Shown here piece by piece: positions 53,654 to 64,000 of a stretch of DNA of 64,000 nucleotides. Numbering within the stretch: the stretch's first letter is position 1; the number at the start of each line of letters is the position of its first letter. The notes under the pieces are model-generated. The model was given only the letters and a program-made list of their open reading frames with translations, was not told the origin of the DNA and searched no databases. The DNA is from Ruegeria arenilitoris. GTDB taxonomy: Bacteria; Pseudomonadota; Alphaproteobacteria; Rhodobacterales; Rhodobacteraceae. The stretch covers positions 620,001 through 684,000 of the forward strand of contig NZ_WQHX01000001.1 in assembly GCF_013035425.1 (NCBI RefSeq), given 5' to 3'. Made by a program: the position numbers and the translations under genes.

Positions 53654-54673
53654 TTACGCGGTTCTGACCTTGTAGTCCTGCTCGCGCGTCAGCACCGCCC
53701 TGATGATCCGCGCCGTTTTGTTGGCCATTGCGACGGCTGCCAGCTTTGCGGGCTTACGTTCAAGGATTTCGGAGAACCAAGGATCGAATTGATCAGGTCG
53801 GTGTCTGATCTGCTTGATCCGGGACGTCATGCCGAGCACCAACAATCGGCGGATGTAGCGGTCTCCCATCTTCGAGATGCGTCCCAAACGTTCCTTACCG
53901 CCACTCGATCGGTTGAGCGGTGTGAGGCCGAGCCAGGCCGCGAGGCTGCGCCCGTTTGAGAACTGACGCCCGTCCCCGATCGAGGCGACGATGGCGGAGG
54001 CGGTGATCGGTCCGACGCCGGGGATCGTCCGCAGGCGGGCGACGCGCGCATCAAGGGGTGCAGCCCGGTTCAACTGACGACCGTACCAGAGTACCCGGCG
54101 GTGCAGAGCCACGAGCTGGTGGCTGAGATTGGTCACGATATCCCGGGCCGGGTCCGGCAAGTCCTGTTCAACGCCTTCAAAACAATGCTTCGCAAAGGCT
54201 ATGGCGTGGCCGGCGCCTTGCCGAACAACAATCCCAAATTCGGCCAGCACACCGCGGAGCATGTTCACGATCTGCGTCCGCTGACGGACAATCAGGTCCC
54301 GTACACGGTGCAGCGCGAGGACCGCTTGCTGGTCCGGCGTCTTGATCGCCACGAACCGCATAGACGGCCGTGTCACCGCCTCGCAGATCGCTGCGGCATC
54401 GATCGCATCCGACTTGCCACGCTTCACATAGGGCTTCACATAGGCCGGCGGGATCAGGCGCACCTCGTGTCCGAGCGTTGCAATCTCCCGCGCCCAGTAA
54501 TGGCTCGTCCCACACGCTTCGATTCCGACCAGGCAAGGCGGCAGGCTCTCAAAGAAACGATGCATTTGCGCGCGCCGAAGCGAACGGTTGAAGACGATCT
54601 CGCCCACCTCAGTGACGCCGTGAACCTGAAAGACATTCTTGGCCAGATCCAGGCCAATGGTGGTAACTTGCAT
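53654..54673 (-). CDS. IS110-family transposase
   Basis: This 339-residue transposase of the DEDD type has a RuvC-like N-terminal domain with GLDLAKNVFQVHG, the acidic GIEACGTSHYW and KSDAIDAAAICEA motifs. A C-terminal Transposase_20 domain follows, with RLRTIPGVGPITASAIVASI and the SSGGKERLGRISKMGD serine region. The frame is full length and uninterrupted, so the element may still be active. It starts with ATG at 54673. It differs from the dead IS6 copy at 27940 in family and condition. Confidence 0.94.
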   Translation of the reverse strand: MQVTTIGLDLAKNVFQVHGVTEVGEIVFNRSLRRAQMHRFFESLPPCLVGIEACGTSHYWAREIATLGHEVRLIPPAYVKPYVKRGKSDAIDAAAICEAVTRPSMRFVAIKTPDQQAVLALHRVRDLIVRQRTQIVNMLRGVLAEFGIVVRQGAGHAIAFAKHCFEGVEQDLPDPARDIVTNLSHQLVALHRRVLWYGRQLNRAAPLDARVARLRTIPGVGPITASAIVASIGDGRQFSNGRSLAAWLGLTPLNRSSGGKERLGRISKMGDRYIRRLLVLGMTSRIKQIRHRPDQFDPWFSEILERKPAKLAAVAMANKTARIIRAVLTREQDYKVRTA

Positions 54674-56238: not shown

Positions 56239-57030
56239 ATGGGGCTAGTGGGTAGAATACTGACGGTTGTCGCTTCCGCGAACCTGGTTGTCCTGTTCGT
56301 ATTTGTCGGTCTGGCAACCCTGCAGTTTGAGGCCATACTTTCCAATATGGTGCGGGAACGTTTGGTCGTTTTGGCAACGCGCACAGCTGTTCCGTTCAAC
56401 TCTGTCGTAGATTTGGGGTTGCCTGTCTCGTCTGTTCGAAACGCGCTTGCTGTATTGGAAGCCGCCAAACAAAGCGACCCAGCAATTGACGACATAACCC
56501 TGTTTTCATTGGGTGGTGAAATCGTCCACTCCACATCCGATCAAAACACTCAGGTTGTTCCAATTGCATGGGTTTCCGCCGTAAGCGATCCAGAGGCCGG
56601 AGGCGTCTTTCAGATTGATGAACGGGCAAGCTTTGTGACCGGAATAGACGTAGGCGAGCTAAGTGCACCCTCAGCTCGGCTAGCAATTAAGTACTCTAAC
56701 GCGCAGGCGATGGATCAGATGCGGGCTATGGTAGCAAAACTATCGTTTGTGGCCGGGTTGCTTATGATAGTGACAATCTTGATTGGAGCGTTGGTTCTAC
56801 GTCTTGCATTGGCTGAGCACGTTCGAATTATCGATGGCATACTAGCAGCCTACAATCTGTTCGAGCGATCATTCTGGCGGGCATCCAACCCTGACACGGA
56901 CAAGCCAAAAGACGTAGATGGGCTTGGAATCTCCAGCGCTTACTTTTGGGATCAGCTGTGGAAATCCGAGCGGATGTACGAGTCGGAACGAAAGAGTGTC
57001 TGCCCCTCGGATAAAGGGGGCGACTCTTGA
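56239..57030 (+). CDS. Two-helix membrane sensor-like protein
   Basis: This 263-residue protein has membrane helices at about residues 6-28 and 166-191. A periplasmic domain lies between them (about 30-165), and a cytoplasmic tail of about 70 residues has no kinase or cyclase domain. The periplasmic part includes TAVPFNSVVDLGLPVSSVRN and ITLFSLGGEIVHST. This pattern recurs in the sensor half of the next protein (ERAIDFGVPLEAIGG and LRSNSGRLIASS), so the two are paralogous modules. The stop overlaps the next start by three bases. It likely senses a periplasmic signal together with its neighbour. I recognise no named family. Confidence 0.78.
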   Translation: MGLVGRILTVVASANLVVLFVFVGLATLQFEAILSNMVRERLVVLATRTAVPFNSVVDLGLPVSSVRNALAVLEAAKQSDPAIDDITLFSLGGEIVHSTSDQNTQVVPIAWVSAVSDPEAGGVFQIDERASFVTGIDVGELSAPSARLAIKYSNAQAMDQMRAMVAKLSFVAGLLMIVTILIGALVLRLALAEHVRIIDGILAAYNLFERSFWRASNPDTDKPKDVDGLGISSAYFWDQLWKSERMYESERKSVCPSDKGGDS

Positions 57031-58967
57031 ACACGCAAAAACAACACGGAAGACTGGCTGCAGGTAGAGTCGTGGGATGGGTCGCGGCAATTGTATTGTT
57101 GTCGTTGACGCTGATGGCCTTTGCGGCTGTGCGCACATTTGAGGCCTCGCTTGAACCGGAAATGAACAAGCGGACTGCACTGATAGCGGCTACGGTTCGA
57201 GAAGAGATTGAACGAGCGATTGACTTCGGTGTTCCGCTGGAAGCCATCGGAGGCGCATCTGAGTATCTGGATGAACTCTTGAAAGAGTTTCCAGAGCTGG
57301 AAAAAATCATGTTGCGGTCCAATTCGGGGAGATTGATAGCCTCAAGCAGCAGGGGCGATTCAACGGGTACAGATGCACCCAATGAAATTAACACTTCACC
57401 GAATACTGTTACGCTATCTATTCTTCGACGAAACACCATCGTCGGTGAGCTTACAATCGAAGCAGACCCTCGTTTTGTCAGATCAAGGCTTCAGGAAGTA
57501 ATGCTAGACATTATCGTCGTCGGACTGGTTGCAATCCTATTAGCATTTGAAATCGTGCTGCTCGTTTCGGCAAATATGCTCGGGAAGCCATTGGATCGGA
57601 TATTTACACTGATGGATGAACAGGCGGCAGCAAGCTTTCGGCATGTTTTGCCGGCACGGGATGCTGGTGAGTTACGCAGAGTTGCGAGGAGGTTATCTGA
57701 TCGCGCATTGCACGTTGCGAGGCTTAGAGGAGCTCAGGATAAGCTTTCAGCTTTGCCGCAAGCCTATTTCGTGGATATCCGATTGCCGGTGTTTATCTTT
57801 TCAACTGCCACAGAAATCAGCGGCGCATTTCTTCCGCTCTATGCGCGGGATGCTGGTGGACCGGATTGGCTGACCTCGGAAATGGCGGCAACTGCACCAC
57901 TAATTGCCTATCTTGTTGCGATGGCTTTGATGGCCCCTTTCGGTGGAGCGATTGCGCGTCGTTTTAGCCCACAACGCCTTTTCTTGTCAGCTATTCCTGT
58001 TACGGCTTTGACCATGGTTGGAGTTGGTTTGGGGCAGAACGCTTTGGTAATTGCGTTTTGGCACGGTTTTATGGCCATCGTTTATGCCTTAGCGACGATT
58101 TCGTGTCAGGAATACGCGATCAAGACCGCTCCTAGGGACGAACTCACCCAAGCAATCGGTGGATTCTTGTTCGTAATCATCGGCGGAGCATTCTGTGGGT
58201 CTGCACTCGGCGGTGTTCTTGCGGACCGCATCGGAGCTTCGGGAACCTTTTTCTTTGGAGCAGGTTTGGCGGTGTTGTCAGGACTAATTGGTGCGAGGGT
58301 TATTTCTGGCCACGTTTCCTTGGATCAGGAAGTTACAACCACGCAATCAGACAAGAGCATTTGGACAGTGCTTACCAATCGCAGGTTTTTTGCGTTGACG
58401 CTTGGTGTGTCCGTACCAATCAATATCGGTATGTCCGTCTTCATCTGGTATCTAACACCGGTTGTTCTTGAGGGCCAAGGTGTCGGAGTGGCTGACATTG
58501 GCCGGATCGTGATGTTGTACTATCTTGCCCAACTTCTTTTGGGCCCAACCGTAGCGAGGTTTGCCGACGGGAAAGTTGGGCAGGTGCCGTTTTTGATCTT
58601 TGGCATCTTTATTTCCGGTGTTGCGATCTCATCCCTATACTTCTGGTCCGGGATTATGCCCATGATTATTGTCGTGACGCTGTTCGGCTTGGGGTATGCG
58701 ATGTGCGACGCGACCCAATATGCCCAAGCCATCCAAATTGGCGAACAGACCTGTGGAGCCGGTGGGGGTGAAAAAGCCTTAGGTGCCTTGCGTCTGATTG
58801 AACGTTTGGCGGCAATCACAGGTTTGATTGCGAGTGTAATCTTGATACCCCGGCTCGGGTATTTGACCATCATCGGCGGCATTGGCGGGCTGATGTTATG
58901 TGGTACGCTATTCATGCTTGGTGGCGGAACTAGTCACAGGAAAACACCGGAACACGTCTCTGAATAA
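57027..58967 (+). CDS. Sensor-HAMP-MFS transporter fusion protein
   Basis: This 646-residue protein starts with TTG behind AAAGGGGGC. Residues about 15-35 and 160-185 are membrane helices around a periplasmic sensor domain, and residues about 186-240 resemble a HAMP linker (KPLDRIF, then AGELRRVARRLSDRALHV). Residues about 250-640 form a twelve-helix major facilitator domain with FGGAIARRFSPQRLF and GSALGGVLADRIGASG loops. Coupling of a chemoreceptor-like input to an MFS carrier is unusual. It may be a transporter gated by the sensed ligand, or a receptor that uses the MFS fold. Transport substrate and direction are unknown. Confidence 0.85.
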   Translation: MNTQKQHGRLAAGRVVGWVAAIVLLSLTLMAFAAVRTFEASLEPEMNKRTALIAATVREEIERAIDFGVPLEAIGGASEYLDELLKEFPELEKIMLRSNSGRLIASSSRGDSTGTDAPNEINTSPNTVTLSILRRNTIVGELTIEADPRFVRSRLQEVMLDIIVVGLVAILLAFEIVLLVSANMLGKPLDRIFTLMDEQAAASFRHVLPARDAGELRRVARRLSDRALHVARLRGAQDKLSALPQAYFVDIRLPVFIFSTATEISGAFLPLYARDAGGPDWLTSEMAATAPLIAYLVAMALMAPFGGAIARRFSPQRLFLSAIPVTALTMVGVGLGQNALVIAFWHGFMAIVYALATISCQEYAIKTAPRDELTQAIGGFLFVIIGGAFCGSALGGVLADRIGASGTFFFGAGLAVLSGLIGARVISGHVSLDQEVTTTQSDKSIWTVLTNRRFFALTLGVSVPINIGMSVFIWYLTPVVLEGQGVGVADIGRIVMLYYLAQLLLGPTVARFADGKVGQVPFLIFGIFISGVAISSLYFWSGIMPMIIVVTLFGLGYAMCDATQYAQAIQIGEQTCGAGGGEKALGALRLIERLAAITGLIASVILIPRLGYLTIIGGIGGLMLCGTLFMLGGGTSHRKTPEHVSE

Positions 58968-59014
58968 ATTGATTGAGGCAACCAGTCCAAATGGACTCTG
59001 GCGATGAGGCTGAA

Positions 59015-60013
59015 ATGAAAAAACTCCACTATTTTGCATCCGCCCTTGCTGTATCGTTGTTGGCCTGTGGTTGGGTGCAAGCCGGCGAAAAAACAATATT
59101 CGGAATTTTCTGGGAGGGTTGCGAGCACGGCTGCCAGGGATTTATCGACACAATAAAAGACAGTGAATTTGATGCTAAAGTTTTGATCAGGGATGCAATG
59201 CAAGATCGTGACAAACTACCCGAGTTCATTATTGAAGCCCGCGAAATAGATGCTGATCTGGTCCTTACATACGGGACCAGCGTTACCTTGGGTGTGGCCG
59301 GTCACATCAACAATAGCGAACCAGAAAATTTCATATCAAAGCGTCCGCTTGTTTTCATGTACGTTTCAGACCCTTTTGGGAGCGGCATCGCTGAAAGTTT
59401 TGAAGGCAGCGGTCGACCTCATGTAGCCGGAACATTTAATCGCGTTCCCGAAGCAGTAAACATCAAAACTATTCGAACGATTCAACCCGACTTTGACCAT
59501 CTTGGAATACTCTTTAACATGAACGAGAGGAACTCTGCATTAAAGGTTAAGGAAATGGAGGAGCTGTCAAAAGAAATGGGTTTCGAATTGACAGCACTTG
59601 AAATTGATCCGGGAAATCAGAATGTCCCTGACTCGGCTCTGATCCCAGGCAAGGTGGCCGAACTGGCCGACGCTGGCGTGGATTTCATTTATCTTGGGTC
59701 GAGTTCTTTCCTCAGGCTGAATGCAGATGTGTTCACAGGCGCCGCCGTTCAAAACGGATTGCCAATCCTCAGCCCCTATGAGGAAGTCGTCAGGGAGCAG
59801 GATGCGCTTCTTTCTGTGGCTGCGCGAGCGGCAGATGTCGGAGCACTTGCAGCGCAACAGGCATTGAAAATCCTGAGGGATGGCAAAGAGCCGGGGGATC
59901 TGCCAATCGCACGCGTGACCGACTTTGCATACGTGGTGAATATGGACGTTGCAAAAAAGCTGGGTATGTACCCTCCTATCGAATTACTGCAAATCGCAGA
60001 AGTTGTCGAATAA
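59015..60013 (+). CDS. ABC_sub_bind-type periplasmic binding protein
   Basis: This 332-residue secreted protein has a signal peptide (ATG 59015; cleavage near LACGWVQA, about residue 22). The mature part is of the ABC transporter substrate-binding type found in TrpX-like proteins, with VLTYGTSVTLGVAGHI, PLVFMYVSDPFGSGIAESF and GVDFIYLGSSSFLRLN. No ABC permease or ATPase gene is nearby. It follows the sensor-MFS fusion by 47 bp, so it probably presents a ligand to the two membrane sensors. The ligand is unknown; aromatic amino acids are bound by some relatives. Confidence 0.85.
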   Translation: MKKLHYFASALAVSLLACGWVQAGEKTIFGIFWEGCEHGCQGFIDTIKDSEFDAKVLIRDAMQDRDKLPEFIIEAREIDADLVLTYGTSVTLGVAGHINNSEPENFISKRPLVFMYVSDPFGSGIAESFEGSGRPHVAGTFNRVPEAVNIKTIRTIQPDFDHLGILFNMNERNSALKVKEMEELSKEMGFELTALEIDPGNQNVPDSALIPGKVAELADAGVDFIYLGSSSFLRLNADVFTGAAVQNGLPILSPYEEVVREQDALLSVAARAADVGALAAQQALKILRDGKEPGDLPIARVTDFAYVVNMDVAKKLGMYPPIELLQIAEVVE

Positions 60014-60398: not shown

Positions 60399-62243
60399 AT
60401 GGAAAGACGCCTAGCTGCCATACTCGCCGCGGACGTAGTCGGCTACAGCCGTTTGATGGGCGCAAACGAAGTCGCCACCTTGGCTGAGATGCAAGAAATT
60501 CTCGCCAAAGTATTCGATGAAGAAATCGACAAAGCTGGCGGCCGCATCGTAAAGCTTATGGGGGACGGCATTCTTGCGGAGTTCGCAAGCGTTGTAAGCG
60601 CGTTGGAATCCGCGCTCGTCATTCAAGAGGCAATGGCCAAAAGAAACATAGGCGTTCCAGAAGATCGGCAGATCCATTTCCGTATCGGCATCAACATGGG
60701 CGACGTGCTCTTTGAGGGCGGAGATATATTCGGCGACGGCGTCAATATCGCGGCCCGCATCGAAGCGCTGGCTCAACCCGGCTGCATTGCCGTTTCTGGG
60801 ATCGTTCGCGATCAGGTAGGTAACAAGATCGGTATCACTTTTGATGCCGCAGGCGAACAGCTGCTGAAGAACATCGATAACGCAGTTCCAGTTTTTCACG
60901 TTCGCCCTCAAACTGGTGATGTTCAGCCTGCAATAGTAAGTGCTTCTAGCCATCCCACAATCGCGGTTCTTCCCTTTGAGAACATGAGTGGTGACCTCGA
61001 ACAAGAGTATTTTGCTGACGGTATCACTGAAGATTTGATCACGGATCTTTCAAAGCTTTCGGGTCTCTTTGTAGTTAGTCGAAACTCAGCTTTTGTATAC
61101 AAAGGCCGACCGTCGAAACTGCAGGATGTCGCTCGAGACTTGGGCGTACGCAATATTCTTGAAGGCAGTGTTCGAAAATCTGGTAACCGCCTCCGCATTA
61201 CAGCGCAATTAATCGACGGTGTAACTGGCGGGCACCTTTGGGCAGAACGCTATGACCGTGACCTATCTGACATTTTTGCCCTACAGGACGAGATAACAAA
61301 TATAATAATTGATCAATTGCAGGTTCGGCTTTTTGACTCTGATATCGCTGAAAGTGCACCTACGGAAAGTGTGGATGCCTACAATCTTTATTTAAAGGGG
61401 CGACGCTACTTTCATATGCGTGCCAGAAATTATCTTGAAAAGGCACGTACGCTTTTTCTTGAAGCAGTGCAGCACGACCCTGACTACGCCCGCGCTTACG
61501 TGGGGTTGGCTGAATGCGAAGCAAGGCTCAACGATTGGCACGGCACGAATTTCCCCTCTGAAGATATTGTCAGCATGGCTCAACGCGCCATTAAGCTAGA
61601 TCCAAACTTGGCAGAAGCACACGCCTCCCTCGGACTGGCTTCGCAGATTGTCGGAAAGAATGAGGCCGCGGTCACAGCCTATCGCAGGGCGCTGTCGCTT
61701 GATCCACTTTGTTATGATGCGCACCATAATTTTGCCCGCTATCATCGCGGTCAACTGGATCATAAGCAGAGCGCCTATCATTTTACACGAGCCCTTGAAA
61801 TCAAGCCTGACGATTATCGGTCACCACTTCTACTTCTTGCCGACCTCACCGAACTCGGACGGTTCGACGAACGTGACCTTTACCTCAACATGGGTCTTAA
61901 ACGGGCTGAAGAAGCGGTAGAACGAAATCCCGACAACCCTGATCCACTCGAATTATCAGCGTCCGTTTTGGCTAGCCTTGGAAGGATTGATGAGGCACGC
62001 GCGTGGTTGAGTCGAGCTCTTTCAATGGAATCCCACAGCTATTCGACAGATGGATACAACGTGGCCTGCGTTTATGCTTTGATCGGTGAAACCGAAGAAG
62101 CATTAGATTGCCTTGAGAAGGTTTATCCGAGTCTTGGCCCCGTTCAACGAGACTGGATGCGAAATGATCCAGATTTCCTCTCTCTTCGCAGTCATCCTCG
62201 GTTCCAATTGTTGTTGGACACCGCACCAAAGACGGACGCCTAG
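60399..62243 (+). CDS. Class III adenylate/guanylate cyclase with TPR repeats
   Basis: This 614-residue protein has an N-terminal class III cyclase domain (about residues 1-170). The metal aspartates are Asp12 in AADVVGYSRLM and Asp56 in LMGDGILAEF, and the FGDGVNIAARIEAL region follows. The domain is apparently complete and probably active. Residues about 185-300 form a TolB/FlgO-like domain (IAVLPFENMSGDLEQEYFAD), and residues about 320-600 hold several tetratricopeptide repeats. No membrane helix is evident, so it is likely cytoplasmic. The architecture is common in alphaproteobacteria. Its signal and partners are not known. Confidence 0.9.
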   Translation: MERRLAAILAADVVGYSRLMGANEVATLAEMQEILAKVFDEEIDKAGGRIVKLMGDGILAEFASVVSALESALVIQEAMAKRNIGVPEDRQIHFRIGINMGDVLFEGGDIFGDGVNIAARIEALAQPGCIAVSGIVRDQVGNKIGITFDAAGEQLLKNIDNAVPVFHVRPQTGDVQPAIVSASSHPTIAVLPFENMSGDLEQEYFADGITEDLITDLSKLSGLFVVSRNSAFVYKGRPSKLQDVARDLGVRNILEGSVRKSGNRLRITAQLIDGVTGGHLWAERYDRDLSDIFALQDEITNIIIDQLQVRLFDSDIAESAPTESVDAYNLYLKGRRYFHMRARNYLEKARTLFLEAVQHDPDYARAYVGLAECEARLNDWHGTNFPSEDIVSMAQRAIKLDPNLAEAHASLGLASQIVGKNEAAVTAYRRALSLDPLCYDAHHNFARYHRGQLDHKQSAYHFTRALEIKPDDYRSPLLLLADLTELGRFDERDLYLNMGLKRAEEAVERNPDNPDPLELSASVLASLGRIDEARAWLSRALSMESHSYSTDGYNVACVYALIGETEEALDCLEKVYPSLGPVQRDWMRNDPDFLSLRSHPRFQLLLDTAPKTDA

Positions 62244-62430: not shown

Positions 62431-64000
62431 CTATTCAATCTCGACAATGAATGCGGTGTGGGAGCCGCGACCATCGTTCCAATAATTTGGGTCGCGTGTG
62501 TGCTCGGGAACGCCGAAAAAGTGGGCATATCCTTCGTTGCCTTTGTAATTGTTGGGTTCGCCCTTTGACCACCGCGTATATGTCAGTGGTTCACCTGTTA
62601 TCCAAACCCAACCGCCAGATGGCTCGTTGCTGCCAGGTAGTTGATAAAGCCCGAAAGCTGGGCCCTGTATATTTCCACTGCTACCTTTGCGAAAATAGCG
62701 TTTATCATTCTTAATAAGGTTGTAAATGAACTGGTTTTCTCTGGCGTTGCCGATTGTTGCCAAGTGTCCTCCCATCTCATTTGCGAACTCGCTTGAAGTA
62801 AAAAAATCCTTTCTGGACGACCGCACTGCCAGGTACAGGTGCCCTTCGAAATATCCAAAAACGACTTCGCTGCGACCAAGGATTTTGAGTGCCCTCTGTA
62901 ACCTTTCCTCCATGGCCTCCGGCATCTCTTCCTGCTTATAAGCACGCGCGGTGTCGCTCTGAAGCGCCTTGATCGCGGGTACGTCCGGCAGCAAGCGCAA
63001 GAATGCAATATCGACTCGGGTTCCCGGATAAAGACCGTTGGCAACCCGAACCGTAGAGATCGCATTGCGGGTTCTGGGACCGAAGGCGCCGTCCACGCTG
63101 CCGACGTTCTGCCCCATCATGTTCAATGCTTCTTGCACCAGTTTTCGTTGTTCCAGCGTCAGATCAGCTTCGAGCTTGCCGTCCGGAAAGCTCGCTTTCA
63201 GCCAAGGCTCTCTGTTTCGCTTTCTTCGTTTCGCTTCGGCTTCGGATTGCAGCACTTCCAGCTTGTCCTTCGCAAAAGCAACAAGGTAGTGCTCTGAGTG
63301 CGCCTCGTATTTTTCCAGGAATTTTTTCCAGGAATAAACTGTTCCGCGGCTTTCAGCCTGGGTATAATCCGAGGCAAGTTCGTTATTAATCTGCGCTGCT
63401 GCCATGGCGATTTCAGCCTCCGACATCTGCTTTTTCGGGTCGGGTGGCAGAGGTTCCTTCAGGAAGAGATCAGATCCCGGTAGCGATCCGTATGTGAAAG
63501 GCTCTTGATACCCTTCGGTCGCCTGGAACACACTGTCTCGCACTTTGCGGAACATCTTGCCCACTTCAAGCCCGGGTTCTTCGAGATGCGTTAGCAAGGC
63601 GGAGGCGTAAGGGCTGTTACGACCGTCACCATCGAGGGCCAGCGTCCCGCCCCGTGCCGAGTATCCGACAAGAACACCGCCCGGATCAATTCGGGCCAAT
63701 CCTTGTCCAATGCTGCGCGTAGAACTTGTTCTGATCATGTCAGTCACAAACGGGTTGTTACGGCACGCGTCAACAAGCACGATTTTCAATCCGGGAGATT
63801 GGGCGATTGAGTTCACTACAGTATCCAGGCGTATGGCCTCAAAGTCGACATCTATGTCGCTGCGCAGTTCAGCGTTTATCGGGATGAGATAGTTATTGTT
63901 TTCGATTTCGATGCCGTGCCCGGCATAATAGATCATGACCTTGTCAGCGGTGCGGGAGGCATCGGCAAAATCACGAAGGGCAAGGCGCATTTCACGGTAA
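62431..64000 (-). CDS. Caspase-fold / PG-binding / C-type lectin protein (N-terminus cut)
   Basis: The frame is open at base 64000, so the N-terminus lies outside the window; 522 residues are visible. First is a caspase p20-like peptidase domain with the catalytic His in MIYYAGHGIEIENN (codon 63918-63916) and Cys in LVDACRNNPF (codon 63765-63763). A peptidoglycan_binding_1-like helical domain follows (LTLEQRKLVQEALNMMGQNV). The C-terminal 140 residues form a C-type lectin-like domain with EMGGHLATI, a WITGEPLTYTRW strand, the Ca/sugar motif EPNN and a WND near the end. Both catalytic residues are present. Its substrate and localisation are unknown. Confidence 0.88.
   Translation of the reverse strand, partial: YREMRLALRDFADASRTADKVMIYYAGHGIEIENNNYLIPINAELRSDIDVDFEAIRLDTVVNSIAQSPGLKIVLVDACRNNPFVTDMIRTSSTRSIGQGLARIDPGGVLVGYSARGGTLALDGDGRNSPYASALLTHLEEPGLEVGKMFRKVRDSVFQATEGYQEPFTYGSLPGSDLFLKEPLPPDPKKQMSEAEIAMAAAQINNELASDYTQAESRGTVYSWKKFLEKYEAHSEHYLVAFAKDKLEVLQSEAEAKRRKRNREPWLKASFPDGKLEADLTLEQRKLVQEALNMMGQNVGSVDGAFGPRTRNAISTVRVANGLYPGTRVDIAFLRLLPDVPAIKALQSDTARAYKQEEMPEAMEERLQRALKILGRSEVVFGYFEGHLYLAVRSSRKDFFTSSEFANEMGGHLATIGNARENQFIYNLIKNDKRYFRKGSSGNIQGPAFGLYQLPGSNEPSGGWVWITGEPLTYTRWSKGEPNNYKGNEGYAHFFGVPEHTRDPNYWNDGRGSHTAFIVEIE

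Follow-up and report, generated by a model that had tools for sequence, protein, structure and literature searches.

Gene layout and domain content of the locus

The window analysed here is a 64,000-nucleotide stretch of Ruegeria arenilitoris DNA (assembly GCF_013035425.1, contig NZ_WQHX01000001.1, positions 620,001-684,000 of the forward strand), and all coordinates are counted within it unless a locus in another contig is named. Three co-directional genes on the + strand, called g1, g2 and g3 here, span positions 56239-60013 and encode a sensor, a second sensor fused to a transporter of the major facilitator superfamily (MFS), and a secreted binding protein, with lengths given in amino acids (aa) and transmembrane helices abbreviated TM:

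56239-57030, + strand: g1, the stand-alone sensor half, an open reading frame of 263 aa with TM1, a periplasmic single Cache domain, TM2 and a helix-connector-helix tail
57027-58967, + strand: g2, the sensor-MFS fusion, an open reading frame of 646 aa with a TTG start
59015-60013, + strand: g3, a secreted ABC_sub_bind (PF04392) protein of 332 aa, counted from the ATG at 59015

The TTG start of g2 overlaps the stop of g1 by 4 bases, with GGGGG upstream of the TTG, and the ATG of g3 follows closely on the end of g2 at 58967, in agreement with an original prediction, made from the letters of this DNA, that the genes overlap or are closely spaced. In Pfam, g2 matched MFS_1 (aa 256-568, E 2e-20), g3 matched ABC_sub_bind (E 2e-21), and g1 gave zero matches. 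The two sensor domains were delimited as follows:

56356-56697, + strand: periplasmic Cache domain of g1 (about aa 40-153), containing DLGLPVSSV and GEIVHS, with model strands at aa 83-153; boundaries approximate
57156-57491, + strand: periplasmic sensor domain of g2, Cache-like by homology (about aa 44-155), containing DFGVPLEAI and GRLIAS; boundaries approximate

That the two adjacent membrane proteins share a sensor module, as had been predicted, was confirmed by BLASTP, in which g1 was compared with the N-terminal 258 aa of g2 (26% across 96 aa, E 1e-6), and by a profile comparison of 33 g1 sequences with 43 unfused g2 N-terminal halves, which gave a probability of 98.1% and a score of 97.9 over 202 columns, against 16.3 or less in 20 column-shuffled controls. 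As judged by these sequence comparisons, the two N-terminal sensors are homologous over about 200 columns. The AlphaFold2 model of g1 (predicted local distance difference test, pLDDT, 90.3; predicted template modelling score, pTM, 0.73) has one alpha/beta domain between two long helices. Its top Foldseek match in the Protein Data Bank (PDB) was an integrative model of WalK (TMq 0.67, E 4e-9), followed by WalK (crystal domain TMt 0.68) and KinD sensor crystal structures at about E 1e-5, with DctB and CitA among the lower matches and some Roadblock/LC7 proteins interspersed. The predicted fold of g1 is that of a single Cache domain. Because the Pfam Cache models match g1 just weakly (dCache_1 in 6 of 33 sequences, best E 0.0022), the g1-type sensor looks like a Cache subfamily outside existing Pfam assignment. 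The sensor domain of g2 was assigned by the profile comparison with g1 and by the secondary structure modelled for the corresponding part of L059, a natural g1-g2 fusion (L numbers denote loci). A ligand-binding domain between two TM helices is thus found in g1, by its Cache fold, and the g2 half is homologous to it. The possibility raised beforehand, that the first 240 aa of g2 are an ordinary MFS N-terminal extension unlike g1, is ruled out by this homology together with the Cache fold of g1.

The sensor of g2 is followed by a linker and a transporter domain, and its second helix carries two intramembrane acids:

57507-57551, + strand: sensor TM2 of g2 with D161 and E175, their conservation being that among g2-type sensors
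57588-57737, + strand: HAMP-like linker of g2 (about aa 188-237), with P188, Q199 and F204 conserved; the aligned stretch of the homologous sensor L165X is a Pfam HAMP domain
57774-58946, + strand: MFS domain of g2, 12 helices (about aa 250-640), MFS_1, nearest to drug/H+ exporters

E175 is kept in 46 of 50 g2-type, carrier-linked sensors and is replaced by Q in the other 4; the aligned position of g1 (aa 180) is acidic in 0 of 33 sequences, and E175 has no acidic counterpart in two SpoIIE-ended proteins described below (L158, L165). D161 is present in all 50 g2-type sensors. The HAMP domain of L165X is a clear Pfam match (aa 199-249, E 1e-11) and falls inside aa 9-269, which align to the profile of the g2 sensor. 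The tail of g1 is a helix-connector-helix that is HAMP-like by layout alone, and in the L059 model both sensor halves finish with a long helix that is joined through a connector to another helix, which is the layout of a HAMP half.

The carrier place holds MFS_1 in 50 of 50 g2-type members; the DctM and TctA carriers of the tripartite ATP-independent periplasmic (TRAP) and tripartite tricarboxylate transporter (TTT) systems are absent there, and Pfam showed no GGDEF or other signalling output domain at this place, which in a receptor would be the output. Fold and exporter comparisons were made on relatives and on the natural fusion L059, not on the g2 of the window alone, and the twelve transporter helices after the second sensor are our own count of the elements listed for the L059 model rather than for the window's g2. 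A PDB profile search with the carrier ranked NorA at the top, followed by VMAT and EmrB and, further down, MdfA, and the first 20 Foldseek matches for the carrier fold include VMAT2, NorA, MdfA and SotB. Of the 50 members, 45 match 2_A_01_02, a multidrug model of NCBIfam, and 35 match FslB, a model for rhizoferrin export. E263 in TM1 is conserved in 40 of 50, and in TM11 R589 (48/49), E592 (48/49) and R593 (49/50) are conserved; a working carrier is therefore favoured. The carrier lies nearest to drug/H+ exporters, and in its direction of transport it is probably an exporter.

The signal peptide of g3 was judged by eye, and the nearest solved structures are 6hni, 3lkv and 3lft. Near its N-terminus is a GCExxC motif with two cysteines (C36 and C40 from the ATG), both invariant in 51 of 51 aligned rows, a motif that one of our scan patterns favoured; the pair is possibly a disulfide or a ligand site. 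The window's own genome encodes a second PF04392 protein (L017 3602-6449), 43 bases upstream of a gene for a dCache-HAMP-guanylate cyclase receptor, an arrangement that we counted in favour of reading the trio as a receptor system.

Recurrence of the gene set and its natural fusions

A scan of named genomes was seeded with g3 only, through two short g3 patterns, and the best 80 of 109 relatives were taken; the conservation seen in those g3 motifs is in part a product of this seeding, and the presence of g1 and g2 is not. By our own profiles, g1, g2 and g3 occur together in 69 of the 80 loci, 67 of them in the order g1-g2-g3; g3 stands in opposite orientation in L036 and L078, and frames are broken in L058, L061 and L079. 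Another eight loci end at contig ends, still with carrier and g3, and three are exceptions: L022, where g3 is preceded by just a short piece of the carrier, L023, with nothing but a shortened g3, and L088, with g3 alone. The taxa labels are mostly alpha-, beta- and gammaproteobacteria, and include Desulfobacterales, Geobacteraceae and single metagenome-assembled genomes (MAGs) labelled Thermoanaerobaculales and Acidimicrobiia.

With g2 as the seed, E 1e-30 or better was reached in 6 of 292 genomes of the order, the window's included. Because none of the 16 other genomes of the window's genus in this sample has g2 at that threshold, the set is accessory in the genus. All five order-level relatives have g1, g2 and g3 in the same order. 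At E 1e-40, g2 was found in 32 of 385 class genomes and 12 of 398 phylum genomes, the own genome counted in each, and several of the matches are carrier-only. A g3-type gene lies within about 3 kb in 41 of 43 g2-found loci outside the window, a set that leaves out two further class-level matches without an assigned locus; by search level these are 5 of 5 order, 27 of 29 class and 9 of 9 newly found phylum loci, and the two loci without such a neighbour (L110, L118) stop at contig ends. Clean profiles did not detect the sensor in 5 of the 41 (L119, with a short carrier, and L122, L123, L126 and L127).

The set thus recurs from both seeds, and as far as genome comparison reaches, a joint system is strongly supported, as the original prediction had proposed; the trio does co-occur elsewhere, and its recurrence in g3-seeded loci rules out a rare local accident. 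It is a self-contained three-gene set of patchy spread, and strains in which it occurs include Azospirillum brasilense Sp7 (L155) and Pseudomonas sp. GM21 (L048), the latter with a natural g1-g2 fusion. A general partner gene beyond the trio was looked for and rejected, the largest flanking family being present in just 6 of the 80 loci and in the window. Two variations in gene number were seen: two sensor-MFS genes stand around a single binding-protein gene in L095 (3147-9005), and the binding-protein gene is doubled in L031 and L038.

In 28 of the 80 loci g1 and g2 form one uninterrupted frame of 797-1007 aa, not counting L027, whose frame is split. On a quick 68-row tree of carrier plus g3, which carries long-branch warnings and leaves out L061 and L079 for their broken frames, the fused or split state changes at least six times, all of these changes being forced by starred branches; one is L027, split within a fused clade, where a sequence error is possible. 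These single-frame genes and repeated switches fit a 1:1 sensor pair on one carrier. With starts picked by our own rule, the two genes overlap in 26 of the 35 loci where they are unfused, and in one MAG (L044) g2 and g3 form one frame. The AlphaFold2 model of the L059 fusion (911 aa, 88 aligned rows) is of high confidence, with a pLDDT of 90.4 and a pTM of 0.90; as read from the pTM alone, its sensors and carrier seem fixed in relative place.

Related genomes also hold sensors of both types apart from the trio. L158 and L165, two related genomes, each hold a further g1-type and g2-type sensor pair close to the set (L158 13221-16900; L165 6640-10326), whose g2-type member forms the beginning of a protein of 971-985 aa with SpoIIE at its other end. 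Because relatives of both halves occur with this SpoIIE-ended protein, the sensor pair is separable from the carrier and not bound to it. SpoIIE genes are found in the neighbourhoods of eight genomes (L141, L144, L146, L154, L158, L163, L164 and L165), with a weak match in L150. As a separate observation, g2-type sensors in L154 (2122-4392), L163 (5034-7208) and L164 (10086-12164) are fused to multi-helix domains without a Pfam match, with SpoIIE nearby; these domains are possibly degenerate carriers.

Other neighbours are confined to parts of the family. An ATP-grasp gene, identified by similarity, lies directly upstream of the carrier in eight genomes of a divergent clade (L122, L123, L124, L126, L127, L138, L139 and L140); our own profiles found the sensor weakly in four of these and not in the other four. 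The upstream gene is Dala_Dala_lig_C in the three cases tested with Pfam, and the arrangement extends more widely to L142, L143, L145 and L147-L149. Another ATP-grasp gene lies beside g1 in L112 and L114 (one tested with Pfam), and a glutamate-cysteine-ligase-like GCS2 gene lies directly downstream of the carrier in L120/L141, L125/L144 and L128/L146 (one tested with Pfam). For these ATP-grasp and GCS2 clades only, we guess that the exported compound is an amino-acid conjugate made by the ligase. Type VI secretion is represented near ten loci by VgrG and DUF6931 genes (L015, L077, L079, L083, L086, L092, L094, L141, L151 and L152; families checked in L092), and VgrG follows g3 on the same strand in L086, L092, L094, L151 and L152; genes near these loci are ones we take to be TssA, TssB, TssC and Hcp. 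An ABC-ATPase-like family, by our own reading of the sequences, is present in the flanks of 6 of the 80 loci at scattered places.

In the window itself, the seven flanking proteins tested (49.4-64 kb) comprise regulators, an IS110-type transposase, a homocysteine S-methyltransferase, a cyclase-TPR protein and a caspase-like protein. No permease or ATPase of the ATP-binding cassette (ABC) type was found among them, the remaining genome not having been searched for these, which agrees with the prediction of a secreted ABC_sub_bind protein lacking such partners and led us to reject an ABC system with parts missing. The transposase gene lies at 53654-54673, 1.6 kb before g1. Downstream of the trio on the + strand is the cyclase-TPR protein (60399-62243), with similar proteins near 6 of the 80 loci, and then the caspase-like (Peptidase_C14) protein (62431-63990), which also has peptidoglycan-binding and C-type lectin domains. 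The guanine-plus-cytosine (GC) content of the trio is 50.6% against 52.7% for the window, a mildly low value (6 of 121 overlapping windows are lower) on which a compositional island was rejected.

Proposed mechanism and alternative explanations

Comparison shows that the set is conserved, that its sensors are homologous, that g1 and g2 occur naturally fused and that the carrier is exporter-like. Building on this, we infer heterodimer formation, docking, gating, a direction of transport and a ligand, as follows. The g3 protein would be a periplasmic binding protein that captures a small ligand, and a single-Cache receptor would be split in two, one half being g1 and the other the N-terminal part of g2; provided that one chain is enough for the carrier to work, g1 would add the partner half without a second carrier. 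Ligand-loaded g3 would dock on the Cache heterodimer, the signalling helices and the HAMP-like linker would shift, and this shift would gate the fused MFS carrier. The carrier, of the drug/H+ antiporter type, has export of a small molecule as its most likely role, and in related clades this molecule is possibly the product of a neighbouring amino-acid ligase. With modest confidence, we favour this account, in which the g1-g2 pair receives loaded g3 and in turn gates the fused and probably exporting carrier; docking and gating, as in the model of the original prediction, are compatible with the observations.

Several observations weigh against it. In L158 and L165 the shared sensor and SpoIIE are separated by a second two-helix stretch, so that these loci share the sensor and are not a clean swap of output. 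The prediction of a HAMP-like linker leading to a twelve-helix MFS transporter held for the transporter and is weak for the linker, Pfam HAMP being found in 2 of 50 carrier-linked members with a best E of 0.05. D161 is by alignment not peculiar to carrier-linked sensors, since the aligned g1 position (aa 167) is acidic in 15 of 33. Antiporter motif C is GPxxGG; the g2 of the window has GSALGG (aa 391-396), with the glycines conserved and the proline absent. An NCBIfam model for aromatic acid/H+ symport, an importer-type model, matches 23 of 50 members. L088 has an intact g3 by itself, and gene order alone is no proof of contact.

The strongest alternative is a binding-protein-dependent MFS importer, in which g3 hands its ligand to the carrier and the sensors are only a docking platform. 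It would explain why g3 occurs with at least the carrier in 77 of 80 g3-found loci as well as near 41 of 43 g2-found ones, and some importer models do match the carrier; binding-protein-dependent ABC, TRAP and TTT carriers exist, according to the accessible part of PMC9602780. We nevertheless consider it unlikely, as the nearest solved relatives of the carrier are exporters, and two receptor halves with signalling helices, whose relatives also occur with a SpoIIE-ended protein, exceed what docking needs.

A transceptor, in which the carrier senses and the real output lies elsewhere in the cell, is less probable again. Its candidate outputs would be the neighbouring SpoIIE phosphatases (eight genomes and the weak L150 match), the cyclases (6 of 80 loci and the window) and type VI secretion (VgrG and DUF6931 near ten loci); no such neighbour occurs throughout the family, the trio is the smallest unit that is conserved, and the core charges of the carrier are conserved as in a working carrier. 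That the three are neighbours without joint function, kept together by co-transfer, is very improbable: the patchy spread, the transposase near the set in the window and the transposase-like genes seen by sight in L012 and L023 would fit it, but it has against it 69 of 80 complete sets over distant taxa, repeated g1-g2 fusion and overlapping starts.

If loaded g3 does act through the g1-g2 pair on the carrier, the trio may represent a new class of receptor-gated secondary transporters, a proposal we put forward tentatively and hold to be possible rather than probable. In such a class an extracytoplasmic binding protein and a split Cache/HAMP-like receptor would act on a fused MFS exporter without any kinase or second messenger in between, and the TM2 glutamate of the carrier-linked sensor would couple it to the carrier. 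On a stricter reading the trio would count as a receptor of the binding-protein kind in which just the output is new. The idea lends itself to direct testing through the natural fusions, the pairing of two sensor halves with each carrier, and the glutamate in TM2.

Comparison with known systems

LuxP-LuxQ, TorT-TorS and NspS-MbaA are examples of receptors activated by a binding protein. The trio resembles this kind, as covered in the accessible part of PMC9602780, in having a binding protein beside a receptor with a Cache-type periplasmic domain and, less surely, a HAMP-like linker; it differs in that an MFS carrier takes the place of the kinase, chemoreceptor or cyclase, and in that the receptor is split over two unequal genes. 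With TRAP and TTT systems it shares a binding protein and a secondary carrier, whereas its carrier is MFS rather than DctM or TctA and is accompanied by a split Cache-type receptor. It is also like ABC importers with PF04392 proteins (TrpX, NF041285), g3 being a member of PF04392 that matches the TrpX model at E 1e-24 with 86.8 bits against a cut-off of 390 bits, and unlike them in having no permease or ATPase among its tested neighbours.

At the level of single parts, the carrier is similar in fold and sequence to the DHA1-type drug/H+ exporters NorA, MdfA, SotB and VMAT2, to which the trio adds an N-terminal sensor, g1 and g3. The fold of g1 resembles the sensor kinase WalK, although g1 has no kinase domain. 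A likeness to the diguanylate cyclase DgcN/YfiN lies in a match of NF007423 to aa 21-219 of g2 (E 4e-6), but at 25.8 bits against a cut-off of 325, and g2 has no GGDEF domain. More generally, in NCBIfam the g2 and g3 of the window stay far under the cut-offs of the models they match, and g1 matches none. CbrA is a transporter-kinase fusion and like g2 holds a carrier and a signalling module in one chain; in g2, by contrast, the sensor comes N-terminal to the carrier and a kinase is lacking.

The original prediction knew of no named system with this set, and we found none either: such a system is undescribed in the literature searched, where most subscription journals lay outside reach, and two family libraries also hold no name for it. 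Each part belongs to a known family or fold, and the assembly itself fits no described kind that we found. The accessible part of PMC9602780 lists the receptors that work with binding proteins (sensor kinases, chemoreceptors, diguanylate cyclases/phosphodiesterases and Ser/Thr kinases) and the carriers fed by them (ABC, TRAP and TTT systems), and in that part the assembly appears in neither group. Direct attachment of a receptor to a carrier, if this is what the trio encodes, would unite both kinds and provide a one-step switch of transport by an outside signal.

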